This document shows, in pieces, positions 3,081-26,849 of a stretch of DNA of 28,983 bases (position 1 is the stretch's first letter; each line of letters starts with the position of its first letter). Below the pieces are notes generated by a model. That model saw only the letters and a list, made by a program, of their open reading frames with translations, was not told the DNA's origin and made no database searches. The stretch is taken from the IMG/VR virus record IMGVR_UViG_3300020193_000953, positions 1 to 28,983 of that record. One strand, given 5' to 3'. The DNA is from a virus. The position numbers were made by a program, and so were the translations under genes.

Positions 3081-3624
3081 TGTTTGTAGTCGTTTTATTT
3101 ATCTTAACAATATTATCTGAAGCACTGTCTTTAGATATGCAACTAAACCCGTACGAGAATGGCTGTTTTTTGTCACCAATCCATAACGGGAAGTTATCAG
3201 AATCTTCACCTCTTTTTTTATTGAGATATTTTATAACATCATTCCTGTAATTATTTGCCTCAATCTTTACATTTTTTTCAAGAGCATTTAAACGAATATC
3301 TGATATAATACTTGAGTTTTCATCATTAAATTCACGCTCCCCGGTGGGTGTTGATTGAGATTGTGAAAAACGTAAATAGTTGTAGTACGTGAACCATGCA
3401 AGATAGTCTTTCAGGTAATCTTCATACAAAGTCTCATTCGCCGGTGTGAATGAGTCGCTCGTTGGATCATATTGTGTCTCAATTTCTGTATAGAATAATT
3501 CACCCAGCAAAGCTTTCATATCTCTTTGCGCAATCTTTAAAGACATCTTGAACTTATTATCGTCAATGTTTGTTGACACTGAACAAGCTTCATTTAGGTA
3601 CGATAATGGGATTAGATATTTCAT
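3073..3624 (-). CDS. Head-tail connector candidate
   Basis: 183 residues, mostly alpha-helical and charged, directly after the portal gene with an ATGA overlap (3621-3624). The N-terminal pattern (MKYLIPLSYLNEACSVSTNI, then a helix KIAQRDMKALLGELFYTEIE) and a central YEDYLKDYLAWFTYYNYLRF helix match proteins encoded just after the portal in Bacteroidota phages, which I associate with gp6-like connectors (possibly the DUF6712 group). Helical structure and position support a head-completion role joining portal and tail. I see no catalytic motif. The family name is from memory and unverified. Confidence 0.55.
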   Translation of the reverse strand: MKYLIPLSYLNEACSVSTNIDDNKFKMSLKIAQRDMKALLGELFYTEIETQYDPTSDSFTPANETLYEDYLKDYLAWFTYYNYLRFSQSQSTPTGEREFNDENSSIISDIRLNALEKNVKIEANNYRNDVIKYLNKKRGEDSDNFPLWIGDKKQPFSYGFSCISKDSASDNIVKINKTTTNNG

Positions 3625-5195
3625 TCTTCTTCAGCAGTTACTAGCCAGATACTAACATCATTATCCGAAAAATTAAACCCAGATTTCAAAAGTTGTGCGG
3701 CTTGTTCGTAAGTTATTTCGCCCTTGTTAAATTTTCTTACAATTCGCTGTATATTCTGCATCTGCATACCCTTTAAATTTTTTAGAGCATCATTTACCTG
3801 CACATCCTGCGTAGTGCCAGGTAAAGCAGTATTCACAGGCTCAATATACGTTATCTCTACACCCGGGACGTTTTTAGATACAAATTTCCTTTTTTCATCC
3901 GGACTCAACACTTCCCAAAACTTATCTTCGACGGTTACCGAGTTATTAACCGGATTAAACGGTTTTATTTTCACTTTTTGAAAAACAGGAACCGCAAGAT
4001 TTGGTAACAGGATGTTATTGTAAAATTGTTCAAGCTTTTTTCTTTGCTTTTCAGTACGGCTGTGCATTAGTTCAGTAGCCTTTTTAAAGCTCTCACCATC
4101 CGACCCCAAACTATTAGCCTGCTGCGGAAGGTTGGCAAGGATCGCAGGAACTTTCGTAGCAATCGTTATCCCACGGATTGTATCAAGTAATGTACCTGAT
4201 AATACGTCGTAATTGGTGTTTGTTGGGAAAGCCTGAAGCGTAGGTAACTGATCTTTACTAGCCCCCCATATTGTAAACACACTGCCAGCTTTCGAATGCC
4301 CTGAAAAATTAGTAGACATCCTATTATTAAAGTCCTCTCCTACGGTGGTTCCGTCGTGTTCACTTGATTCTATACCATCTATAATCGTTTTTCTAACGTA
4401 TTCTGGTGAATCACATGCTGCGTCTGGATCACCGATAAGAGACAAAAGAACGCTTTGAAAAAATCCGTTGTCAAGGTTTGAAGCGTGAAAACTTTGAATT
4501 TTACCATCCACGTAAATCCATTTTTTCCCAGTCCAATACTTTGGTACTGAGTAGAATTTATACGGGCTTCTCAGATAATTAAAATAGTATATCTGACCTA
4601 AGTAATCGTTGCCTTTTTCACTGTACTCATTAAGTACCTTTTTTTTATCAAACTCTGTATAATTTTTGCTGTCGGCTGGGTTAAATAACTCCGTGCCAAA
4701 ATAAGGGTTCACCTTAAAACTTGTAATCAAGCTAGACTTACGATTTGTATTTCTGCAAAACCGCGCCGTTTCAATCGGCACATTGAATGCAGATACAATA
4801 CCTGCACTATTGTTATACTTAAAATTTACCGCAAAACTTTCAAGCTTTGAAAGTGATTCTGAAAATGTGGTATGTAAATCAAAAAGGGTAGTACCCTCCG
4901 TATCAATAACTATACTTTCTAATGCAGGATCAGTAAATCCAGATCCGGTAATAAAGTCTGACACAACGTCCAAACAACTTGTAGTCGTCGGGCTTTCTTC
5001 AATCGCATTTAAAATGAGCAATGGCAAGTCGTCATTATCACCCCACTTTATCGTTTGTGTGTCGCTCCGTGTCTGCGTATCCTTCTGCGGACTTCTTACC
5101 AATGCCTCCGGATTACTGGTTATGCGATGGGCACTGAATCCAGTACTATTTCTAAACTTCTTATCTCTTGGATTGAATTTTTTTTCCACCGGCAT
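3621..5195 (-). CDS. Phage portal protein
   Basis: 524 residues, near the usual portal size. It has the expected features: a loose charged N-terminus, an early segment on choosing polypeptide sites (SCLDVVSDFITGSGF), a domain near 310-400 with ITIATKVPAILANLP and a long helix (SFKKATELMHSRTEKQRKKLEQFYNNILLPNL) typical of the portal stem and wing. The C-terminus holds a helical region (NLKGMQMQNIQRIVRKFNKGEITYEQA). The portal forms the dodecameric DNA gate at one capsid vertex. Unusually, it lies about 20 kb from the terminase genes, after the glycosylation cassette, and has its own promoter (5200-5245). The ATG at 5195 sits 4 bases after a TAAATTTG box, so the message may be nearly leaderless. 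Confidence 0.78.
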   Translation of the reverse strand: MPVEKKFNPRDKKFRNSTGFSAHRITSNPEALVRSPQKDTQTRSDTQTIKWGDNDDLPLLILNAIEESPTTTSCLDVVSDFITGSGFTDPALESIVIDTEGTTLFDLHTTFSESLSKLESFAVNFKYNNSAGIVSAFNVPIETARFCRNTNRKSSLITSFKVNPYFGTELFNPADSKNYTEFDKKKVLNEYSEKGNDYLGQIYYFNYLRSPYKFYSVPKYWTGKKWIYVDGKIQSFHASNLDNGFFQSVLLSLIGDPDAACDSPEYVRKTIIDGIESSEHDGTTVGEDFNNRMSTNFSGHSKAGSVFTIWGASKDQLPTLQAFPTNTNYDVLSGTLLDTIRGITIATKVPAILANLPQQANSLGSDGESFKKATELMHSRTEKQRKKLEQFYNNILLPNLAVPVFQKVKIKPFNPVNNSVTVEDKFWEVLSPDEKRKFVSKNVPGVEITYIEPVNTALPGTTQDVQVNDALKNLKGMQMQNIQRIVRKFNKGEITYEQAAQLLKSGFNFSDNDVSIWLVTAEEE

Positions 5196-5199
5196 GATA

Positions 5200-5245
5200 C
5201 AAATTTAATGGATATTCATTTTTAAGTAGTGACAACAGTTGTCAC
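5200..5245 (-). promoter_or_regulatory. Late promoter for portal block: palindrome plus -7 box
   Basis: The perfect palindrome GTGACAACAGTTGTCAC fills 5229-5245, with a single-base centre. On the minus strand, 21 bases downstream, is TAAATTTG (5207-5200), an exact match to the Bacteroidota -7 consensus TAnnTTTG. The portal ATG follows after 4 bases. There is no TTTG at the -33 position; the palindrome occupies that place. The same arrangement with the same spacing occurs before the protease-capsid gene. The stop codon of the Cys-rich gene (5242-5244) lies inside the palindrome. Confidence 0.65.
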
Positions 5246-5499
5246 CATAACCCCAGATCACATGACTCTTCTTTTATTCTCGGCTTTGTAGAAATCGGAC
5301 ACCCACATTCTACGCAAACCCCGTACTTATTCGAACCACACGGACGGCATATTTTACGACGCTCCTTTGCGTAGTCCGGATCAAATTGGACAGCTAACCA
5401 ATACCAAGCAGTGATAATGTTTTTGATTTTTTTAATCGATCGCTGAAATCGGCTCTTTTTCGATCCTCCGTGTGTAGGTAATGTTCCCCTAGGTTCCAT
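5242..5499 (-). CDS. Cys-rich small protein, probable zinc ribbon
   Basis: 85 residues. The C-terminal third carries six cysteines: C51-x2-C54, C62-x2-C65-x-C67 and C80, ending in DLGLW. Small proteins of this pattern (CxxC...CxxCGC...C..W, possibly the DUF6171 group) are frequent next to glycosyltransferases in phage genomes; zinc binding is likely but the role is unknown. The N-terminal 30 residues are strongly basic. The ATG at 5499 makes the gene overlap the end of the glycosyltransferase gene by 106 bases, which is long for this phage. Either the overlap is genuine or translation starts further in at a non-ATG codon. The stop lies within the portal promoter palindrome. Confidence 0.6.
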   Translation of the reverse strand: MEPRGTLPTHGGSKKSRFQRSIKKIKNIITAWYWLAVQFDPDYAKERRKICRPCGSNKYGVCVECGCPISTKPRIKEESCDLGLW

Positions 5500-6119
5500 C
5501 TTCTATTCAAATCTGATAATCTTTTAACATACTTTTCATGCCTGCGTAATAGACGATCTATACCACCAATGGCCCTATAATGTAGAAGAGCGTAGGTTTC
5601 TTCAGAAAATTGGATATTGCCTACCGGCCTGGCTTCATGGCATCCATAGATATAGGCAATCTCTTTTACCGCCTCTGGCTTGAAGCATACCAACTTAGAA
5701 TACGAATCATCTTTAAATCCGGTTACGATTTCAAGAAAGGAATCAACGGGCATATCATTAGAGTACATGTTGTATCCCTGAGTACGCAACATAGTCGCCC
5801 CTTTTAAAGCCTCCTGTTTAAATAGAAAAGATATGTCCTCATGGAACAGTATTTCATCACAATCACACACGATAACCCAATCCGCATCTGAATTTTTCCA
5901 ACAGTTATTTTTTACCTTAATGTACTCCCCATCACAAAGCATCCCTGGTATACCAAACTTTACAACCTCACACCCCATTGATTTGGCGATTAGGTCGCTT
6001 CCGTCATCGCTGTAATTGTCGTATATGACAATCCGATCACAAAATTTTTTATAATGTGAAACCGTTAGAGCGATAATATCCGCTTCATTCCAGTTGATAA
6101 TATGAGCTTCTATCTTCAT
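5394..6119 (-). CDS. Glycosyltransferase, GT2-like (GT-A fold)
   Basis: 241 residues. The N-terminus (IINWNEADIIALTVSHY, then VIYDNYSDDGS) is the nucleotide-sugar binding start of GT2-like enzymes that act on glycans. The metal-binding DxD is D86-C-D88 in WVIVCDCDE. The middle has YNMYSNDMP and a conserved HEARPVG that fits the acceptor side. No membrane segment, so the enzyme is cytoplasmic. It overlaps the methyltransferase upstream by 4 bases and ends over the Cys-rich gene. It would add a sugar to a glycan, protein or modified base; donor and acceptor cannot be told from the sequence. Confidence 0.75.
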   Translation of the reverse strand: MKIEAHIINWNEADIIALTVSHYKKFCDRIVIYDNYSDDGSDLIAKSMGCEVVKFGIPGMLCDGEYIKVKNNCWKNSDADWVIVCDCDEILFHEDISFLFKQEALKGATMLRTQGYNMYSNDMPVDSFLEIVTGFKDDSYSKLVCFKPEAVKEIAYIYGCHEARPVGNIQFSEETYALLHYRAIGGIDRLLRRHEKYVKRLSDLNRRWNLGEHYLHTEDRKRADFSDRLKKSKTLSLLGIG

Positions 6120-6646
6120 ACTTTTATAAAGTAAAACCCTGCATCGTCATTCTTATGCTCTGATATAACATTGATTGTATACTTGCCTTTGCAAAACTCT
6201 ATGACAGCCTGATTAACTCCGTACGCATTGTTTAAGAAGTCGTGCCCTGCCACAATACCGCCTTTTTTTACTTTAGGTGTCCACGCCTCCAGATCTTTCT
6301 TGACGCATTCGTAACTATGACAAGCATCTATATACACCATGTCTAAAGTACCGTCTGTAACTTCTTTTGCCATATCCCAGCTAATACCGCGAAGTACAAT
6401 AACGTTGTCTTTGTATTCCGAAACTCTGTGCATAGCTTCATCAAAATTCTTGTCGTGCCACGACTGATCAAAAGCTCCGTCGCCTCTTTGTGTAGGGATT
6501 GTTTCCCAATTATCAACCATATATAGAATACCCGATGGCCACCTCAATATGTCAAGGCTGAACAATCCCTCAGCACACCCAATTTCAGCAACGATAGGGT
6601 TTGCTGGCAATAGCTTGTATAATTGTGATCTGTATCTTATTTCCAT
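6116..6646 (-). CDS. Class I SAM-dependent methyltransferase
   Basis: From the ATG at 6646 the protein has 176 residues. A longer frame from 6730 would overlap the HNH gene by 62 bases with an unlikely N-terminal extension. Motif I is VAEIGCAEG (residues 19-27), followed by the acidic ribose-binding strand YMVDNWE. The TLDMVYIDACHSYECV segment and VKKGGIVAGHDF are typical of the Methyltransf_24 / sugar O-methyltransferase group. It is probably an O-methyltransferase acting on a glycan or small substrate. It overlaps the following glycosyltransferase by ATGA and comes 22 bases after the HNH gene. Confidence 0.75.
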   Translation of the reverse strand: MEIRYRSQLYKLLPANPIVAEIGCAEGLFSLDILRWPSGILYMVDNWETIPTQRGDGAFDQSWHDKNFDEAMHRVSEYKDNVIVLRGISWDMAKEVTDGTLDMVYIDACHSYECVKKDLEAWTPKVKKGGIVAGHDFLNNAYGVNQAVIEFCKGKYTINVISEHKNDDAGFYFIKV

Positions 6647-6668
6647 AATGAGAATAATCTTTTTTGTT

Positions 6669-7157
6669 TCATATATGTTTCCAGCTTTTTCTATTAAGGA
6701 TTGCAGAAATATTTGATTGAGTGACTCCATACATAGAAGCTATTTGACTCTCTGTTTTATCAGGAAACAACGCACGAATATTAATTACATCTGATTCCAC
6801 CAATTTTGAATGGATACATTTTGATCCAGAAACAGACCCTCCACGTGAACGCTTTTTATTATGCCTATCAGCAATATTATCCGCCTGAGTTCCTAAAAAT
6901 AAGTGATCAGGGTTAACGCATGCTGGATTATCACAGGTGTGTAATACTGAAAGTTCATCAATATTATAATGCTCTTTAAAAATCCAATAGGATACCCTAT
7001 GGGCTGTAACTACCTTATTACTTATTAATGACGCCTTCTGAATCCCATATCCATCAGCGTTAATAGATGCGCCCCAAATCCAACATCCGGTATTTGGTTC
7101 TGGATATGATTTTCTAATAATTTTTTCTTTTAAATCTTGCTCAGTTAGTTTTTTCAT
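6669..7157 (-). CDS. HNH endonuclease, free-standing homing type
   Basis: 162 residues. The N-terminal CWIWGASINADGYG and AHRVSYWIF segments lead to the HNH core: VLHTCDNPACVNPDHLFLG (H73, C75, C80, N82, H85), the HNH_3-type fold found in phage homing endonucleases. The C-terminus carries a helix-turn-helix (SQIASMYGVTQSNISAIL) that would read DNA sequence. It interrupts the glycosylation cassette between a GT25 and a methyltransferase gene, with only a 2-base gap to the upstream gene stop. That fits insertion of a selfish element. No intron or inteln boundary is seen, so it appears free-standing. It would nick or cut DNA at a specific site in related phages lacking it. Confidence 0.85.
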   Translation of the reverse strand: MKKLTEQDLKEKIIRKSYPEPNTGCWIWGASINADGYGIQKASLISNKVVTAHRVSYWIFKEHYNIDELSVLHTCDNPACVNPDHLFLGTQADNIADRHNKKRSRGGSVSGSKCIHSKLVESDVINIRALFPDKTESQIASMYGVTQSNISAILNRKSWKHI

Positions 7158-7159
7158 TT

Positions 7160-7951
7160 TTATCCTGCCCAGTTAAATGTTGACGGATTAAAGTCAGTCA
7201 TTAAATTTTGGTATACGTAGGCTGAATTTTCATGAGTTCCATTTAATTTTAAGAACCCAGACCAATAGGTAATACCATTACCAATATCCGAAATATTATC
7301 AATTTGACGAACACAACCAGGTACAAAAGAAAAACATTTTAGTTGTGGCTGCAACTTAATAAACAAAAAATCTATACCTATCGACTCATGTATATGCTGG
7401 TCAAACATATTCAGTATCTTCTGAATAGAATTAACATTCACGATATAGGCGAAAGTAGCAAATGCACCGAATGTTCTTATCATCCTTGGATCATCGGTTG
7501 TCTCACAATCGCGTCCTAACTCTGCACTGCAATTATTACGCATGTCTTTTGAACCACCTATACAATGCCAGTACGGAGGTATATGGAATGAAGCCCCTAG
7601 CCATATAACATCCCACTCGTGAGTATCAGACCATTTTGATATGTAGTCCATTCGCTCGTTAAAGTCTTCGCAGAAAACTAAATCATCCTCCATGACAAAA
7701 GCATGCTTGCCAACATTAAGTGCGTCCTTCATCACTTGAACCTGCGAAAAGTGGCAACCTATTGCGCCCTGCGTACGCCTAAACATAGTACCAACCTGCT
7801 TAGGTGTTGCGATCTTTCTTTCGATTACGTCTTCAGGACGAAGGCCACGAGTTCTAACGGCATTTAATCCTATTCTATTTAACTGCTCGGTCATGTGCGA
7901 AAGCCTATCCACGCGATGATCCATGTTTACAAATGATGCGTAGTATTCCAT
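7160..7951 (-). CDS. Glycosyltransferase family 25
   Basis: 263 residues. The start YASFVNMDHRVDRLSHM matches the family 25 opening. The GAIGCHFSQVQVM segment (62-74) is the family's signature for acceptor-side positioning, and FVMEDDLVF contains the metal-binding acidic cluster E88-D89-D90. GT25 enzymes act in LPS outer-core synthesis and in hydroxylysine galactosylation. Cytoplasmic, no membrane span. It shares its first base with the stop of the FkbM methyltransferase upstream (TAATG), so the two are translationally coupled. Substrate unknown. Confidence 0.85.
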   Translation of the reverse strand: MEYYASFVNMDHRVDRLSHMTEQLNRIGLNAVRTRGLRPEDVIERKIATPKQVGTMFRRTQGAIGCHFSQVQVMKDALNVGKHAFVMEDDLVFCEDFNERMDYISKWSDTHEWDVIWLGASFHIPPYWHCIGGSKDMRNNCSAELGRDCETTDDPRMIRTFGAFATFAYIVNVNSIQKILNMFDQHIHESIGIDFLFIKLQPQLKCFSFVPGCVRQIDNISDIGNGITYWSGFLKLNGTHENSAYVYQNLMTDFNPSTFNWAG

Positions 7952-8583
7952 TATGCGTATTTAAATGACCCATTGATATATAGTGCATCCCCCCAGCCAG
8001 TATTTCCGCACCAGAAAGTTTCTACACGTCGGAAATTAAAACCGATCATGTATAAATCGATGTCATCTACAAGCGCGCAACCTTCATATAATCGTTCCTT
8101 ATTAACCTCCAGATACGCAGCTTTAAATCCTTTGAGCAAATCACCCATTCCACGCATGGCCATAAGTTCAGCCCCTTGCAAATCAATGTTAAGAAAATCA
8201 ACACCCGATAAATCAAGGCCCAGCGAATCAATACGGTGCATCCTTAGAGACTTGTCTTCAACATAATGTACTTCAGGGTGTACGACTGCATGTGTCCCTA
8301 AATCTAATACTGAACTAGATTGGCTTCCGTTGTTGGATATGTGGAATATTGCATCCTTGTTTTCGTCGCCAATAAGGTAATTCAACGCAATTGCATCCGG
8401 ATTATTGCTTACATTATTTTTAAGCTTAACAAAAATATCTGGATTACCCTCAATCCAAATTTGTTTTTTAATACCAAGCTCATTATAAACGGGAGCCTCT
8501 TCACCAACGTTTGCCCCAATGTGTAGGACACCATTAAATTTCAGGTTATACTTTGGGAATAAATTTCTAAAGTCTATCAGCAT
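7951..8583 (-). CDS. FkbM-family methyltransferase
   Basis: About 210 residues from the ATG at 8583, one base after the upstream stop; an in-frame ATG at 8604 would overlap the previous gene by 20 bases. Motif I is VLHIGANVGEE and the ribose-binding strand is IWIEGNPDIF. The characteristic FkbM segment DFLNIDLQGAELMAMRGM follows, then a strand AYLEVNKERLYEG. FkbM enzymes O-methylate sugars and polyketides, and are frequent in capsule and LPS clusters, where a terminal methyl group can stop chain growth or hide an epitope. It lies between another methyltransferase and the GT25. Confidence 0.85.
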   Translation of the reverse strand: MLIDFRNLFPKYNLKFNGVLHIGANVGEEAPVYNELGIKKQIWIEGNPDIFVKLKNNVSNNPDAIALNYLIGDENKDAIFHISNNGSQSSSVLDLGTHAVVHPEVHYVEDKSLRMHRIDSLGLDLSGVDFLNIDLQGAELMAMRGMGDLLKGFKAAYLEVNKERLYEGCALVDDIDLYMIGFNFRRVETFWCGNTGWGDALYINGSFKYA

Positions 8584-8584
8584 A

Positions 8585-9160
8585 TTATCGTGGTTTAAAT
8601 CCATTACTCATTTCAACTTCCCAAACTCCATATCCTAACGCTGTAGGATAAATTTGCATGAATCCAGGTTCAATAAGCTCATTCAATGCCTGCCGTACTT
8701 CCGGGTTTTCACCGTCATTTGTTGCGTCATGGCCTGCCAAAATTCTATTAGGCAACACTTTCCGATACCACAATCTGACCTCCGCTTTAGTCTGTTCGTA
8801 CTTATGCGATGAATCAAGAAAAACAAAGTCAAAGTATTCATCTGGGAATTTACAAGAGGCATCAAGGCTACTAACACCTAAGCCCCTCGTATCAATAAAA
8901 TTAGATAGCCCACTTGCGTACACGTGATTTAAAATAGTTTTCAATTGATCCTCACGGCCATAGTCTAAGTTATCTACCAGGCAAAGCTTAAAGCTCTTCC
9001 CCATGTTTGCCATCGCTTCAGCAAGATATATCGCGCTCTTTCCGTCTGCTACTCCAACTTCGCAAAGATTTGCACCGCTAGGCATTATTTCAGCAATTCG
9101 ATTATAGTACGCGGAGAAATCAAACATTTCTCCAGGTATTGTTTCCCAATATTTTCTCAT
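8585..9160 (-). CDS. Class I SAM methyltransferase (Methyltransf_24 type)
   Basis: 191 residues. Motif I LCEVGVADGKSA (32-43), acidic strand CLVDNLDYG, and the YFDFVFLDSSHKYEQTKAEV segment with RILAGHDATND are typical of the sugar/macrolide O-methyltransferase-like group. The His-Asp pair in AGHD may hold a divalent metal. It overlaps the epimerase upstream (ATGA) and is followed immediately by the FkbM gene, so three cassette genes form one translational unit. Likely a second glycan O-methyltransferase; the target is not known. Confidence 0.78.
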   Translation of the reverse strand: MRKYWETIPGEMFDFSAYYNRIAEIMPSGANLCEVGVADGKSAIYLAEAMANMGKSFKLCLVDNLDYGREDQLKTILNHVYASGLSNFIDTRGLGVSSLDASCKFPDEYFDFVFLDSSHKYEQTKAEVRLWYRKVLPNRILAGHDATNDGENPEVRQALNELIEPGFMQIYPTALGYGVWEVEMSNGFKPR

Positions 9161-10191
9161 TCGTATTGTGATTTAATCCAGTTATAAGTTTTTTCAAGAC
9201 CTTCACGAAGTGTATGCTTTGGCTTCCAATTAAGAACCTGCTCAATCAATGTGTTATCAGAATTTCTACCCATTACACCCATAGGCCCGGTAATGTTTTT
9301 AATCGTAACCTCTTTACCAGAAAATTCAATGGCCATCTTAGCAAGCTGGTTGATAGTTACTACCTCTTCACTTCCGATATTAATAGGCTCTTTAAATTCT
9401 GATTCCATAAGTAATCGAACTGCGTCTATGCAATCGTCTATGTACAGGAATGACCGTGTTTGATGTCCAGTGCCCCAAACCTCCAATTGATTGTGATCTT
9501 TGCTTGTCGTTGCGTGTAGCAATTCTACAACCTTGCGACACATCGCGGCAGGTGCTTTTTCTCGACCTCCCTTATACGTTCCTTCTGGCCCAAATATATT
9601 ATGGAATCTAGCTATCCGAACATCTATTCCTTTATTACGAGCAAAGGCAAGGTATAGCCTTTCGCTAAACAACTTTTCCCATCCGTATTCTGAATCAGGG
9701 TTGCCGGGGTATGCGTCGCTTTCCTTTAGTGCTGATACGTTGTATTCATTCTGCAATTCCTGCGGATACATACACGCAGATGAAGAATAGAATATTTTTC
9801 CTTTGAACTTTTGCGCCGCTAAACTATCAAGAATATTCAAGTTAATTAATGCCGAATCGTGCATTATATCACTGTCATTTTCACCGGTAAAAACATATCC
9901 AGCACCACCCATTTGACAAGCAAAAGAATATACTTCATCAAATTGAATACTATTTTCAAACGGTAAAGGATGATATGTATATTTTTTTAAATCATTAAGT
10001 CTTAAGGTTGCATCTACTCTTGATTTATCACGTAAATCCTCAATGATAAATTCATCACAAAATTCTAAAGGATTACCATAATCATATTCTTTAATGTCAA
10101 CAACACGTACCCAGTACCCAAGTTGTTTTAATCTTCTCGCCATGTGGTGACCAATAAATCCTGATCCACCTAAAACTAAAGCTGTCTTCAT
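9157..10191 (-). CDS. NAD-dependent epimerase, GDP-mannose 3,5-epimerase-like
   Basis: 344 residues, extended SDR family. It has the NAD motif GGSGFIG (8-14), the catalytic Tyr-Lys pair Y169-x3-K173 (SEYGWEKLF), and SSSACMYPQ with Cys140, the position of the acid/base cysteine in GDP-mannose 3,5-epimerase. The segment IFGPEGTYKGGREKAPAAMCRK (199-220) closely follows the plant GME signature. ACQMGGAGYV at 91-100 also fits. Plant GME turns GDP-D-mannose into GDP-L-galactose. That product could feed the neighbouring GT11-type transferase. The gene ends in an ATGA overlap with the next methyltransferase, and its start is 1 base after the GT11 stop. Confidence 0.83.
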   Translation of the reverse strand: MKTALVLGGSGFIGHHMARRLKQLGYWVRVVDIKEYDYGNPLEFCDEFIIEDLRDKSRVDATLRLNDLKKYTYHPLPFENSIQFDEVYSFACQMGGAGYVFTGENDSDIMHDSALINLNILDSLAAQKFKGKIFYSSSACMYPQELQNEYNVSALKESDAYPGNPDSEYGWEKLFSERLYLAFARNKGIDVRIARFHNIFGPEGTYKGGREKAPAAMCRKVVELLHATTSKDHNQLEVWGTGHQTRSFLYIDDCIDAVRLLMESEFKEPINIGSEEVVTINQLAKMAIEFSGKEVTIKNITGPMGVMGRNSDNTLIEQVLNWKPKHTLREGLEKTYNWIKSQYE

Positions 10192-10192
10192 A

Positions 10193-10987
10193 TTATCTAA
10201 ATTTTATTTGTATCCACTCATTAGGTATTAAATCAACGCAATCCTGCTTTACTCCGCTTTCTAAGCCGAACCAATTACCACGTGTATGGGAAGGGCTTAT
10301 AACTATCTTATCCGGATTATGACCAAGATATGCACCCCACCAGCTAAAGGTACTATTAGCTATAATATGATGCCCACATGATGCCATTAGTTCAAGGTCT
10401 TGCAGTTCTGTTCGGCTTTCTGAATATCCCCGTATTCCATCAATGCAATGAAAATTATCCTTACACCATTTTATATCATCGGAAAATACAATGAAATTAT
10501 TAAATCCAATATTAGAAAAATGTTCCGTTGCAATCTTTAGGTAGTTAAGATCAATAGGAGGGAAACTGCCTGAATGCTGAACATAATCACCACGGCGTAC
10601 ATGAATACTTACATAGTCTTCGTACCCTGGAATATGTTTTAATTTGAATACGTCTTTTACTTCATCCTTGCAGTGTTCAAAGTATTTCCACGACTGAAAG
10701 AACCCAAACAACATAACATTATCACCTATGTTTGGTATATCATGGAAATCAAAATGGCATAAGTCTTTGTGTCTATTGTGGATATGACAATGTTCATTTA
10801 GATGCTCTTCGTAGCGCTGGTAACGATTATTACACCTTGGCAGGTTAGGGTATACACGATGTATGGATGATTCTCTTGCATCATCTGGTACACCCCATTC
10901 ATAACCGTACTTTCGAGCGTACCCAATTGCCGCAGCAATTTGAAACATACTATTACCTAATCGACCGATAAATTTTGTTGTTACCAT
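10193..10987 (-). CDS. Glycosyltransferase family 11 (alpha-1,2-fucosyltransferase-like)
   Basis: 264 residues. The N-terminus KFIGRLGNSMFQIAAAIGYA is the GT11 opening. The donor-binding motif HVRRGDYV is at 129-136, and the C-terminal ANSTFSWWGAYLG (210-222) matches the conserved SNSTFSWW block. Family members move L-fucose from GDP-fucose to the 2-OH of galactose. Here the next gene is a GDP-mannose 3,5-epimerase-like enzyme that would give GDP-L-galactose, a fucose analogue with a 6-OH, so L-galactose may be the sugar moved. The gene overlaps the GT2 upstream (TAATG). Cytoplasmic. Confidence 0.87.
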   Translation of the reverse strand: MVTTKFIGRLGNSMFQIAAAIGYARKYGYEWGVPDDARESSIHRVYPNLPRCNNRYQRYEEHLNEHCHIHNRHKDLCHFDFHDIPNIGDNVMLFGFFQSWKYFEHCKDEVKDVFKLKHIPGYEDYVSIHVRRGDYVQHSGSFPPIDLNYLKIATEHFSNIGFNNFIVFSDDIKWCKDNFHCIDGIRGYSESRTELQDLELMASCGHHIIANSTFSWWGAYLGHNPDKIVISPSHTRGNWFGLESGVKQDCVDLIPNEWIQIKFR

Positions 10988-11685
10988 TAACGCATCTGTT
11001 TTAATTTCTCAATAATTGAATCATGAAACCCCTGTGGCGTTCTCCGAACATTATTACGGTAGTGGCTACCATCGTGAACACGGTGTTCGTATTCAAGAGA
11101 AGGCTCAACGTATATTGAATGGCCAGCCTCCAGCCATCGGTAATTTTGGTATAGCGAATCGCTTGTTACAGGGTCTATAGTACCATCCCAAACACGCAAA
11201 TATTCATCACGATTCACAAAATAGTTCATCGCGTTAAGCATCGTTTGGAAAGTTGGATCTGATATGTATTCAGCAACATTATGTTTTGAAATTATAAAAC
11301 CAGCATACTTTGTAAAATTAAAATGAGGTTTAGCAAAAGCCGGATGAATAATAATGCCTTTACTAAGTCTAAATGGCGTACATAGTAAAACCAATATATA
11401 CATTTTAGTTATTATATTATCGCTATCTAAAATAATCACCCATTCATTTGTTGCAAGCTCTACAGCGCGTTTCTTGTTCCGGTAACAGTCAAGATTACTT
11501 TTGTTACGGTATAGCTTTACTTTGGGTATGTCTTTCACATGCTCTTGTATTTCTTCAAATACTTCCATGCTTGAACAGTCGTCAACAATAACTATCTCAG
11601 AGATTATATTGTCGTCTACAACTTGTGCGAACGATTCGAACAACATGCCGGTACGCTCGTATGTTGGTATGCAAAGTGAAATCAT
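10987..11685 (-). CDS. Glycosyltransferase family 2
   Basis: 232 residues. It opens with ISLCIPTYERTGMLFE, continues to IVIVDDCSS (31-39), and carries the metal-binding D87-S-D89 in WVIILDSDN: all standard GT2 marks (GT-A fold). The C-terminal DPVTSDSLYQNYRWLEAG segment resembles the acceptor side of family members. No membrane segment. It starts directly after a 35-residue membrane peptide gene and couples to the GT11 gene. It likely adds one sugar of the glycan built by this cassette. Confidence 0.85.
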   Translation of the reverse strand: MISLCIPTYERTGMLFESFAQVVDDNIISEIVIVDDCSSMEVFEEIQEHVKDIPKVKLYRNKSNLDCYRNKKRAVELATNEWVIILDSDNIITKMYILVLLCTPFRLSKGIIIHPAFAKPHFNFTKYAGFIISKHNVAEYISDPTFQTMLNAMNYFVNRDEYLRVWDGTIDPVTSDSLYQNYRWLEAGHSIYVEPSLEYEHRVHDGSHYRNNVRRTPQGFHDSIIEKLKQMR

Positions 11686-13273: not shown

Positions 13274-13306
13274 AAAAAAAGGCCACCTGCAACCATTCAG
13301 GTGGCC
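13274..13306 (-). terminator. Leader terminator/attenuator before the HTH gene
   Basis: GGCCACCTG (minus strand, 13306-13298) and its complement CAGGTGGCC (13289-13281) form a perfect 9-bp GC-rich stem with an 8-base loop, followed by seven T (13280-13274). This is a textbook intrinsic terminator for minus-strand transcription. It lies between the promoter (-7 box 13347-13340) and the ATG at 13263, so transcripts from that promoter should stop after about 60 bases unless something prevents it. Confidence 0.8.
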
Positions 13307-13339
13307 CAAACCTCCCTACCAAAATGAAAATCTCTCTCA

Positions 13340-13372
13340 CAAATGTATATAAAATGTTACCACAGTAACAAA
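13340..13372 (-). promoter_or_regulatory. Promoter with embedded operator before the HTH gene
   Basis: On the minus strand, TTTG (13372-13369) is followed after 21 bases by TACATTTG (13347-13340), matching the Bacteroidota -33 and -7 elements at acceptable spacing. The spacer holds the palindrome TGTTACCACAGTAACA (13355-13370). A protein bound there would block polymerase, so this looks like a repressed promoter. A related palindrome lies at 26834-26849. Confidence 0.65.
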
Positions 13373-13978: not shown

Positions 13979-16222
13979 TTAGTAAGAAATAGCTGTCAAA
14001 TCACAGTGGATACTAGGCAAGAAGCCCATAGTCATATTAGACCGGTAGTATCTCTTGTTGTCTTTTTTCTCAAACCATGAATCAATTTTTTCCATGTCTG
14101 CAGTATCCTCAACACCCAACACGTGGTTTTCCTTGATCGTGAAAGCAATCAAGTGCTTAGTAGTAGCCGCCAACGGGTTGGTTGAATCAGAAAGATGATC
14201 GTCCCAGATACTAATAGGTTTCACTGGGATACCTAAGTATGTAAGGTTGCTGATACCCTGGATTGCGTTTGTGAATTGCTGTTCAGTAACCGCACCAGTT
14301 CCAATCAAACTATTGTAGTAGTTTTCCCACACTGATCTTGTTACCAAAAATTGACCCTTACCACCGTCGATTGCTTGTTGTTTCAAAAGTAGTGGGCTGT
14401 TATTAACTATGTTCTGGAAGTAGCTCAACGCTGTTCCTGCCGATAATGTACCTGTACCAAGTGACGAACCTATGCGGTTAACGCAATAGTTTGAAGCTCC
14501 TGAAGAGTCAATTAATGCTTGCCAGAATCCGTCAAACTGATTCCAGTCTGCGCTGGAGCTTGAAAGATCAGCGAATGATACACGTCTCCAAATGTCACGA
14601 CGCAAAGCATCTTTTAACAGGTCAACGATCATCGTGTCGATTGGCGTCCCTGCTGGGTCAAAGGATTCATTACCGGATTTCAAATACTGCTCTGCCAGAA
14701 CATTGTACTTACCTTGCAATTGTTCGGTGAAGTCATCCTTGCACCATCCCTCATACATTTGAAAAGGTTTCAATTGAATACCCTTCGATGTAAGGTTAAA
14801 AGATGAATTTGTGATAGCCTGATCGCATCCGGTGTAAGGCTTCAGGATCTTGTTCATTACAGGTGCGATGTGGTACTTCTTGCTATTCTTAGCCCCCAGG
14901 TCAAGATTGAATACATCCGCAAGTGCAGGAGATCCAATTGTAGGCTTAAAGAAAAGATCTGTACTCAGCAGTCCATCATAGGTGTAGTTGAACTCCACCT
15001 CTAAAATAGAAGCTGCATTGGGGCCACCTTCGCGGTAGGACGAAAAGCTTGTGCCATCGGCAAAGCACCCATTCTTATACCGCTTTTCAAGCCACGGCAT
15101 ATTCTCGGCCAGGAACGTACGAGATGCACGTATCGCCATCTCTTTATTAGTACTCTTATTCATAATGCTTACAGGTTTTCTTACGGCCTCTGCGCCGGAA
15201 TCTGGTTTTGAATTGTCACCTATTACTTTTTTACTTTCTGCTTCAAGATCTTTTTTGATAGCCTGCATCGCTGCGGCTGCGTCACTTAGCTTTGTTTCAA
15301 GCTCTACTTTCTGTGCGTCTGCATTGGCTGTCGCAGCCTTAGCCGCATCAAGCTGAGCATTTAAAGCGGCTATCTGTTGCTCTAATTTAGCCTGCTCCGT
15401 CATTGGTGGAGTCACTGAAGTGATAACACCACCAGCAACCACAACGACGCTACCGTCTGCCATCTGGTGTTCACCATCCGGCGCAGGCTGTCCGTTGACC
15501 GTTACAGTCTTACCCACAAGTTGTCCGTCCTCCGATTGAACAACCAAAACAGTACCATCGGCTTTGGATAGATCCAGTGCCTTTGGCCCTTTAACGAACT
15601 GTGAAAGTTCATTGAGCTTTGCATCAATCGCGTTCAATGCTTTAGAAAAAATGTTGTCTTTGTTGTCTTCCATTTCCTTACTGCCGAATGCAACGGCTTT
15701 TAATTTTTTGTATTGATCGTCCTCAAGAATACGCCCACCTATTTCATCTGCAAATCCAAAATCAACCGCTTCTTTTGCGGTCATCCTTGTTTCTGCTTTC
15801 ATCATCTGCTTAATAACATCAACAGTCTTACCCGATCGTTGTGCGTAGGCTTCTGCCATTGCATTTTCAATCGACAGTAATTCGTCTGCTCCGCTTCTAA
15901 GCATGTCCGCGTCACCTCTCAACCCTTGTGATGGGTTATGTATCATCCAGATTGAGGGGTCAAGTATCACTATCTTTTTTCCAGCCAAAGCAATGAATGT
16001 CGCCATAGATTGAGCTTCGCCTTCTATCCGGCTCTCAATTTCTACGCCCAATGACTTCAGCAAGTGATACCCCTTATATCCGCCGTATACACTACCGCCT
16101 GGGGATTGAATATGATGTATGATTTTTTTTGTGTTGGCAGGCATACCGCCTAACTGCTGCTTTAACACCAGGTGATAATCTTCTCCTATAATGTCATCAG
16201 TGAATATGTGATAATCTGCCAC
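13979..16222 (-). CDS. ClpP-type prohead protease / linker / major capsid protein fusion
   Basis: 747 residues, GTG start at 16222. Residues 1-170 are a ClpP/S14-type protease: SPGGSVYGG (40-48), nucleophile Ser72 in EAQSMA, His95 in WMIHNPS; Glu143 lies at the position of the family's Asp. Residues about 210-272 form a small beta-rich segment (GQPAPDGEHQMADGS...GGVITS). Residues 274-335 are a charged coiled coil, the scaffold-like delta region. From about 345 on, the HK97-type major capsid domain begins (MAIRASRTFLAENMPWLEKRY) and runs to the end. One chain thus holds protease, scaffold and capsid, which must be cut during head maturation. Own late promoter (16240-16285). Confidence 0.85.
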   Translation of the reverse strand: MADYHIFTDDIIGEDYHLVLKQQLGGMPANTKKIIHHIQSPGGSVYGGYKGYHLLKSLGVEIESRIEGEAQSMATFIALAGKKIVILDPSIWMIHNPSQGLRGDADMLRSGADELLSIENAMAEAYAQRSGKTVDVIKQMMKAETRMTAKEAVDFGFADEIGGRILEDDQYKKLKAVAFGSKEMEDNKDNIFSKALNAIDAKLNELSQFVKGPKALDLSKADGTVLVVQSEDGQLVGKTVTVNGQPAPDGEHQMADGSVVVVAGGVITSVTPPMTEQAKLEQQIAALNAQLDAAKAATANADAQKVELETKLSDAAAAMQAIKKDLEAESKKVIGDNSKPDSGAEAVRKPVSIMNKSTNKEMAIRASRTFLAENMPWLEKRYKNGCFADGTSFSSYREGGPNAASILEVEFNYTYDGLLSTDLFFKPTIGSPALADVFNLDLGAKNSKKYHIAPVMNKILKPYTGCDQAITNSSFNLTSKGIQLKPFQMYEGWCKDDFTEQLQGKYNVLAEQYLKSGNESFDPAGTPIDTMIVDLLKDALRRDIWRRVSFADLSSSSADWNQFDGFWQALIDSSGASNYCVNRIGSSLGTGTLSAGTALSYFQNIVNNSPLLLKQQAIDGGKGQFLVTRSVWENYYNSLIGTGAVTEQQFTNAIQGISNLTYLGIPVKPISIWDDHLSDSTNPLAATTKHLIAFTIKENHVLGVEDTADMEKIDSWFEKKDNKRYYRSNMTMGFLPSIHCDLTAISY

Positions 16223-16239: not shown

Positions 16240-16285
16240 TAAATTTAGAAAATAGAAATATTACTCAGGTGACAGTAATTGTCAC
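16240..16285 (-). promoter_or_regulatory. Late promoter for the protease-capsid gene
   Basis: The 17-bp palindrome GTGACAGTAATTGTCAC (16269-16285; one wobble pair) is followed on the minus strand, 21 bases downstream, by TAAATTTA (16247-16240), one base off the -7 consensus. The gene's GTG is 17 bases further on. Architecture and spacing equal those of the portal promoter at 5200-5245, with the palindrome replacing the -33 element. Confidence 0.6.
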
Positions 16286-16288
16286 ATT

Positions 16289-16480
16289 TTACGAGTGCTT
16301 CTTAACGCATCTTATCACTGTACGCATCGACACATTATTGTCACACGATATATCAATCACGCGTAGACCTTCGCGCTTACCCTGCATGATACGCCACTTG
16401 GTAAGCATATCCGGACGCGCAAGGCCGCTTGCGATGTGTTCAATAACCTCCTGCTCTGTATAGTCAGCTAAATTTCTCAT
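16289..16480 (-). CDS. Small HTH-like protein upstream of the capsid gene
   Basis: 63 residues, basic. The C-terminal half ([30 protein letters not shown]) reads as a helix-turn-helix of the Trp-repressor/sigma-region-4 type: helix, turn around NNVS, recognition helix RTVIRCVKK. The N-terminus is helical ([21 protein letters not shown]). It overlaps the tape measure stop by ATGA. The late palindrome (16269-16285) lies 3 bases past its stop. A DNA-binding protein encoded right at this position is a natural candidate to bind it, which is inference only. Confidence 0.62.
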
Positions 16481-18570
16481 AACGACGTTATATCCTCTTT
16501 ATATGCAACTTTATTACTTTCCCTGTAAAATTCCCGAATGTCTAAAACTGGAGCCGGCATACTTTGTAGTGCACTCAATAACGCTACATTGCTATCTATT
16601 GAACTTGTTTGTGCCTGCGTTACTATTCCACCGTCTGCATACTGCGCTGTCGGTCTAAGGGCATTGGCTACCTGTGGGCCACCCACGGCGCTAACGTCGG
16701 CCTGTGACCATACCACCTCACCCTTGTGAACTATACCTGCAGGTTCGTACTTACCACCATCACCGGTATATCCACCATCTGCGAATAGTGTTCTCAACAA
16801 ATTACGGCCCCGTCTTAATTGAGCCTGTATCCCAAGATCCTGGAACGTAAGTTTACGATCCTCTCCCAGCAAAAACGTTTTGGTATTAAATCTCTGCTCA
16901 CCAACTGGCACAGCCTTACCATTTTGGATTGTGAACTGCTGGCCACCGGCGCCCGTGTACGTGGTTGTGCTTATTGAATTTGAAGAAGAAGCTCCTAGTA
17001 TACTCTCTGCCTGTTTAATGTTCGCCGATATTTGCAGGATACCAGCCGCAAATTGAGCCGCACCAGCAAGCCCACCTGTAGGGCCGTTAGCAGGGTTTTG
17101 TTGAGACGCTTTAACCAGTGAAGATATAGCCAGTGCCGTATCAATACCTATCTGTACAAGGGCCGACGCCTTATTGTCTTTTCTTACCGTATCAGCAAGC
17201 CTTGCCCCTTGTGTTGCGAAGTTCGCGTAGATGTTGAATGTTTTCTCTTTATATAACTGTATTGCCTCCTCCGTTTTAATTGCGTCTTCTGCATCGCGTC
17301 TTCTGAATACTTTTTGATCTGCAAGGTACTTTTCGTTAAACGCTTTATTGGCGTCAAGCAACTCATTGTTAAACTCTCTTACATCCGTTATCCTCTTGAT
17401 ATAAGAGTCTCTTTCCGCCTTTTCCCTTGCCTTAATAAATGATTGTTCAACGTCGTCTTTCAAGCGCACTTGCTTGATATACTCCTTAATCATTTTTTCA
17501 TCCGCCTCTTTTTGTTTTCTGGCTGCTTCTAATTGCTTTTGTTTTTCATCTGTGTATTCTTTTTCAAGTGCCAGAATACCGTTCAACGCTTCCGTACGCT
17601 TTCCTTGGCTGTCCTCTTCGATGTCTGATATTTCAAACTGGACAAGCTTTATTTCCTTTTGCAAATCCAGATTATTCTTATCGAGTGCTAGCAATACCTG
17701 TAATTGGGCAAGCTTCTTTTCCTGCGCTTCAACTAATGCTTTTTCCCGATTATTTATAAACACGGACACCGTTTCAGCGGCCTGCATACGTTCTTCATCA
17801 CTCTTATTCTGATCGTCACGGATACGGCGTTGCACTTCAGCCAGATCTAGCTGTACCTTGGCAAACCGCTTGGATTCAAGTTCGGCAAGTTCTAACTCAC
17901 GAAGTGTATTCTTTGCCGTAGCCGCGACTAGACCGTCCACGGCAGCACTTATACCAAAGACAGATGTATTAAATTCAAAAGCTAACCTACTCAATAATCC
18001 CCCCCCTTTGCCATCAGCACCTAATAGGTCAGCCAATGAATTACTGACTGTTGTTATCGACGTACTGAGCTGTGTTTGCGCGCTGGCCAAATCCCTGGCC
18101 CCCGCTGCTGAAGAAACATATAGTGACGATAAGGCAGTGACAGCCCCAGCCGCAGCCGTAGCCGGCGTAAGGAATGATGTGATTGTAGATGTTAGATCTG
18201 ACATTGATTGACCACCAAACTTCACATTCTCAGAAAATGAAGTCAAAAATCCGTTCTGACTTTTAATTGATTCTGCAAGCTTATTATTCGAATCAATAAG
18301 CTTATCCATACCGGTCTTCGTGCCGGTCACCTCCTTAGTCAAATCAGTATAGGCACGCTGGCTTTTCCTTAGTATCTGTTCAAGTCGTACAGTATCAGAC
18401 GCGTATTCATCTATGGTTATATCACCATCTTTTAAAGCCTTATTAAGTGTCTTTTGCTCTTCTTTAGTAGATATTATAGATTTCTTGTACTTTTCAAGTT
18501 GCGCTATTGCGTCCTCTTGCTCTACCTCAAACTTTAATATCTCCGTCCGCTTATTAGATTCGGTTGCCAT
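16477..18570 (-). CDS. Tail tape measure protein
   Basis: 697 residues. Long charged coiled coils fill about 10-110 and 215-430; a hydrophobic Ala/Ser-rich stretch near 130-160 ([18 protein letters not shown]) and another near 470-520 could enter the host membrane during DNA delivery. The C-terminus has [25 protein letters not shown], a signature of tape measure proteins in many phages. At roughly 0.15 nm per residue it would set a tail of about 100 nm. It starts with a TAATG overlap to the tail protein upstream and is coupled by ATGA to the HTH-like protein downstream. Confidence 0.85.
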
Positions 18571-26833: not shown

Positions 26834-26849
26834 TGTTACAGTAGTAACG
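26834..26849. promoter_or_regulatory. Operator-like palindrome in the divergent region
   Basis: TGTTAC-AGTA-GTAACG, a near perfect inverted repeat with a 4-base centre. It has the same layout as TGTTAC-CACA-GTAACA inside the promoter at 13340-13372. It lies between the terminase start and the plus-strand promoter, so one protein could control both sides. Confidence 0.55.

Follow-up and report, generated by a model that had tools for sequence, protein, structure and literature searches.

A family of uncultured Bacteroidota viruses probably marks two virion operons with a phage-specific palindrome pair read by a tiny Mor/C-related activator

The DNA analyzed here (the window, 28,983 nt) is the whole of IMG/VR record IMGVR_UViG_3300020193_000953, a linear and incomplete piece of a phage genome. 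Its host probably belongs to the Bacteroidota, because relatives of the terminase (≤59% identity) lie mostly in Bacteroidota genomes. The family of uncultured viruses represented by the window marks its two virion operons with a palindrome pair specific to each phage, which is probably read by a tiny Mor/C-related activator. Paired operators at fixed spacing, in two copies per phage, together with a missing −33 box and a conserved helix-turn-helix (HTH) gene at the operator, form the observed base of this reading. The palindromes are likely to be late-promoter operators, both bound by a dimer of a 63-residue protein (hth63) that replaces the −33 box, with host polymerase using the −7 box. The binding, dimeric form, and activating role of hth63 are what we infer from this arrangement.

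Palindromes and −7 boxes in the window

The initial annotation had reported GTGACA-N5-TGTCAC at 5229-5245 and 16269-16285. These were the only two matches in a search of the window, with no others even at ≤2 mismatches, and none of 100 dinucleotide shuffles of the window gave the motif. The copy at 5229-5245 (minus strand), GTGACAACTGTTGTCAC, is the putative late operator of the portal promoter, and the copy identified by motif search at 16269-16285 (minus), GTGACAATTACTGTCAC, is that of the protease-capsid promoter. Read on the minus strand, a gap of exactly 21 nt separates each palindrome from a downstream TAAATTT[GA], so that the spacing first described holds at both sites; the resulting −7 boxes are TAAATTTG (5200-5207, minus) at the portal promoter and TAAATTTA (16240-16247, minus) at the protease-capsid promoter. 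Compared with the consensus TAnnTTTG, found at −12 to −5 in Flavobacterium psychrophilum (PMC9723704), TAAATTTG fits and TAAATTTA is one base off. Promoter coordinates given throughout assume this placement of the −7 box, which puts the window operators at approximately −50 to −34. Lone TAnnTTTG sequences were found 36 times in the window against 32 expected by chance; because they are this frequent, the significance of the box lies in its fixed position relative to the palindrome. The combination of palindrome and box is confirmed as real and non-random.

A canonical Bacteroides primary-sigma promoter carries TTTG at −33 and TAnnTTTG at −7 (PMC7366714). The −7 box is common to that promoter and those described here, whereas the −33 box is replaced by the operator or absent; as the annotation had observed at −33, neither window promoter has a TTTG anywhere between −40 and −28.

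Both promoters had been proposed to precede key virion genes. This was upheld for the first gene after the portal promoter (3621-5195, minus), identified as a portal gene by PHROG 11226 (E value, 8e−31) and by its relatives. The first gene after the second promoter (13979-16222, minus) encodes a Clp-protease domain with a probable capsid fusion; the N-terminal protease domain was identified by Pfam (E value, 9e−26), which supports the protease half of the claim, while the capsid half is presumed. The portal operator overlaps the stop codon of z85 (5242-5499, minus), which encodes a cysteine-rich, DUF6171-like protein of 85 residues. The protease operator starts three bases past the stop codon of hth63 (16289-16480, minus), whose 63-residue HTH product is a candidate Mor/C-like late activator. 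If this placement of the −7 box holds, transcription of the portal gene would begin at its own ATG (5195, minus), giving a leaderless mRNA, and the protease mRNA (gene start at 16222, minus) would have a leader of ∼13 nt.

Conserved architecture with private operators

Searches with the portal and protease identified ∼30 related viral contigs. Gene order in most relatives runs from the small and large terminase genes through three genes for proteins of ∼700 residues to hth63, the first site, and protease-capsid, followed by two conserved genes, a variable cargo region, z85, the second site, portal, and DUF6712. A lack of palindrome conservation in relatives had been put forward as grounds for dismissing the system, and the exact sequence was indeed missing in all but one relative. 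The window's palindrome was absent from the right place in the first eight relatives (≤2 mismatches), a scan for the exact architecture over all viral contigs returned ten matches, all unrelated, and GTGACA half-sites were common to one relative only, G021. What is shared is the two-promoter architecture: in 18 relatives that contain both operons, each phage has a private palindrome-like motif that recurs at its two promoters, clearly so in 17. These motifs include GTAAAC-N5-YYTTAC (G009), GTAACC-N6-KGTTAA (G010), GTTRCG-N6-YGYAAC (G012), TTAACC-N5-GGTTAW (G018), GTAACA-N5-TGWTAC (G024), GTAGCA-N5-TGCGGC (G025), GTGACC or GTGTCC-N5 (G016), GTGACG-N6 (G022), and TAGG-type motifs in G002 and G003. 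The architecture is conserved and the operator letters are not, each phage having its own palindrome in the same place. Conservation of the exact palindrome was the wrong test for this system, and the trap is a general one, as a conservation test on operator sequence alone would have discarded a real regulatory system.

The pairing of sites within a phage was assessed with a motif-blind test on regions from −25 to +55 around the z85 and hth63 stop codons of 17 phages. The best ungapped match averaged 13.8 within a phage versus 8.2 between phages, and the observed total was not attained in any of 200,000 random pairings. Two phages, G017 and G018, were weak in this test; the G018 operator falls within the z85 reading frame. 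A −7-box-anchored test (9 phages) and a partly circular curated-site test (16 phages) concurred. Within one site, the two arms matched at 4.7 of 6 pairs, compared with 3.4 for arms re-dealt among sites. When phages were scanned with their own motifs (G017 left out), two sites and no third of comparable score were found in all 18, including the window's phage; terminal repeats indicate complete circular genomes for five of those scanned (G010, G016, G018, G020, and G025).

Operators and −7 boxes across the phages were partly curated by eye. The two promoters of a phage have the same operator-to-box distance in 11 phages (G000, G002, G003, G005, G009, G010, G016, G022, G024, G025, and G006/G007) and distances that differ by one base in G012, G017, G029, and G030, the values of G017 and the G022 portal site being read by eye; a clear −7 box is missing at one or both sites in four relatives (G004, G018, G020, and G021). 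Operator centers fall into two classes ∼7 bp apart, at approximately −42 to −43.5 and −47.5 to −52.5, with G002 apart at −34.5, and each phage keeps its own spacing at both promoters. The window operators are centered near −42; those of most relatives are centered at approximately −48 to −52 and end at −39 to −44. The two classes count against the preferred explanation, as one simple contact does not account for both. TTTG was absent from −40 to −28 in 28 of 29 promoters across all phages measured. The annotation had suggested a phage activator that binds the palindrome and recruits host sigma through the −7 box only; this proposal is supported by the relatives, which keep the corresponding architecture and likewise lack the −33 box, and regulation would probably be positive.

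Two distant relatives, G029 and G030 (portal 29% identical), also have operator pairs (L093, 60-77 and 3677-3694; L094, 11485-11502 and 15113-15130) with GTGCA or GTGCC half-sites, located 30 to 31 nt ahead of TAACTTAG-like boxes. A search of bacterial genomes with the protease profile identified no prophage, and the rest of the module was absent from the flanks of the bacterial terminase relatives, which lie mostly in Bacteroidota genomes.

hth63 and its likeness to Mor and C of Mu

In all relatives that contain this region, bar the most distant ones, the protease operator lies at the end of the hth63 gene. AlphaFold2 modeled hth63 with high confidence (pLDDT of 91) as four helices, including a tri-helical HTH. 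In a library of 38,880 families, the most frequent matches of the hth63 family were PHROG 836 (13 of 18 members) and PHROG 532 (9 of 18), both annotated as "late transcriptional activator"; Pfam Mor was matched by 3 of 11 members. Profile-profile alignment of the hth63 family with Mor, C, and five relatives paired the HTH regions with a probability of 90.6%. The hth63 protein of the window gave no significant family match by itself, and its placement therefore rests on the relatives. In the complete relative G025, ten conserved proteins were scanned, and hth63 alone gave an HTH match. The earlier proposal of the 63-residue protein as the activator is thereby strengthened by a conserved HTH and by matches to the Mor/C late-activator family, and its direct binding is presumed.

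Only the HTH half of Mor/C aligns to the family, whose members have 62 to 85 residues (60 to 80 in most). The ∼75 residues that precede the HTH region in Mor and C are absent, a point against the preferred explanation, which does not account for the presumed dimerization. A PDB fold search with hth63 returned no E value of <0.001, and a profile search of solved structures gave generic or repeat-protein HTH matches only. The hth63 profile (A5) had no match in the distant contigs G029 to G032, though G029 and G030 carry operator pairs; the gene at the hth63 place in G030 codes for a longer product, HTH-like at one end, that the profile missed. By sequence, hth63 is a distant, shortened relative of Mor/C, and the system probably works like theirs.

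In Mu, Mor binds a 16-bp dyad centered at −43.5 at Pm, in place of the −35 element (PMC4390567), and C binds just upstream of the −35 site at late promoters (PMC4461284). On the Mu map, the Mor and C genes each end at the promoter they activate (Pm and Plys, respectively), an arrangement repeated by the hth63 gene and the promoter that it would serve. The Mor dyad also resembles the window operator in size and position (17 bp at approximately −42), with operators of most relatives ∼7 bp further up, and in standing in for an upstream promoter box, there being no −33 TTTG in the window. The C site resembles the operator class centered near −50. The Mor-type HTH DNA-binding region aligns with the hth63 family, weakly for the window protein alone. 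Unlike the hth63 family, Mor and C have 129 to 140 residues, including the N-terminal half; Mu promoters use a σ70 −10 box rather than a Bacteroidota −7 box; the operator sequence here varies from phage to phage; and no gene in the window marks a Mu-like transposing phage.

Under the proposed mechanism, an hth63 dimer would bind each window operator at approximately −50 to −34 (near a −50 center in most relatives) and would supply the contact otherwise given by the absent −33 box. Host RNA polymerase with its primary sigma factor would then transcribe the protease-capsid and portal operons from the −7 box. Since the hth63 gene follows the terminase and tail genes in the same orientation and stops at the start of the late promoter, hth63 made from that upstream transcript would start the late phase, like C in Mu. 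Searches of open-access literature, which covered few subscription papers, found no account of late-gene switch-on by such phages in Bacteroidota.

Whether the protein varies with its operator was examined by correlation. Operator similarity tracked recognition-helix similarity at the portal site, where operator and hth63 gene do not overlap (rho, 0.44; P = 0.002), and still did so once the portal, the protease, and the N-terminal part had been controlled for (0.32; P = 0.014). No correlation was seen at the protease site (0.05; P = 0.32), and the half-site version was marginal (0.30; P = 0.066). The correlation is significant in part only, and covariation of helix and operator is not claimed as established. 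On the portal tree, the four phages with GTGAC half-sites (G000, G016, G021, and G022) occupy scattered positions, and each carries Arg at position 4 of the recognition helix; the same residue occurs with different operators in G003 and, as judged by eye, in G008. This post hoc pattern is suggestive of a possible example of a helix-to-operator code. A widespread group of Bacteroidota phages in which a minimal single-domain activator and its operator pair change together so often that nearly every phage has a late specificity of its own, with a readable helix-to-operator code, is a tentative extension to which we would give somewhat less than an even chance. If activator and operator do change together, the phages would offer a naturally occurring collection of orthogonal activator-promoter pairs based on the Bacteroidota −7 box and would be well suited to studying why late specificity is kept private to each phage. 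A protein of ∼62 residues and a 17-bp site make the switch cheap to test.

Alternative readings and other features of the window

The same palindromes could be operators for repression, with hth63 or a different phage protein occupying the polymerase site and so silencing the late promoters. HTH proteins often act as repressors, and the window operator extends to −34, covering the −33 region. However, promoters without a −33 box look weak unaided, and the operators of most relatives end upstream of the core promoter, at −39 to −44. The families matched by hth63 are late activators, and its gene closes the preceding run of genes right at the target promoter, like that of Mu C; repression is accordingly rated improbable. 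A second possibility accepts real, phage-specific operators and assigns activation to another phage protein, such as z85 or an early protein encoded outside the window. Like hth63, z85 is conserved in position, to the same degree and at the other operator; the window also covers only part of a genome, and the correlation between helix and operator is incomplete. Yet the operators vary whereas z85 is strongly conserved, and the ten G025 proteins scanned yielded no HTH match other than hth63, so that a different activator seems unlikely.

Half-sites of the form GTGA...TCAC and a center at approximately −42 recall a host regulator of the CRP/FNR type. The CRP/FNR site is TGTGA-N6-TCACA, and in class II CRP-dependent promoters the palindrome is centered near −42. 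That center is common to the window and a few relatives, whereas most relatives have theirs at approximately −48 to −52; the protein family is unrelated, and unrelated motifs occupy the same place in the relatives. With GTGA and TCAC separated by 9 bases (GTGA-N9-TCAC), the CRP/FNR site reading was rejected as very improbable. Inverted repeats near stop codons could also act at the RNA level, as hairpins or as intrinsic terminators of the genes upstream, but no T-run follows, the palindromes were not among the listed terminators, and folding was no better than that of shuffled sequences (z of 0.25 and −0.55). Moreover, both sites of one phage have the same sequence, in G003 and G005 down to the loop bases, a match that hairpin formation would not require. 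This reading, for which neither a stable hairpin nor a T-run was found, was likewise rejected as very improbable. The preferred explanation remains activation by hth63 at both operators.

Several further features were identified in the window. The 697-residue protein encoded just upstream of hth63 (16477-18570, minus) has tail tape-measure PHROG matches, chiefly through a short segment near its C terminus. The cargo region that separates the capsid and portal operons (5394-11685, minus) encodes glycosyltransferases, methyltransferases of the FkbM type and others, a sugar-nucleotide epimerase/dehydratase, and an HNH endonuclease. At 13372-13340 (minus), the sequence TTTG...TACATTTG looks like a canonical promoter, and a strong terminator-like hairpin (13307-13280) follows within ∼35 to 65 nt. 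This promoter-hairpin unit (13281-13372, minus) could encode a small RNA or attenuator of ∼60 nt; an Rfam search that included it gave no match. A second palindrome, GTTAC-N4-GTAAC, has exactly two intergenic copies, at 13356-13369 and 26835-26848. The former is located past the capsid operon, within the TTTG...TACATTTG promoter, and the latter upstream of the terminase genes; both are possibly sites for a second regulator.
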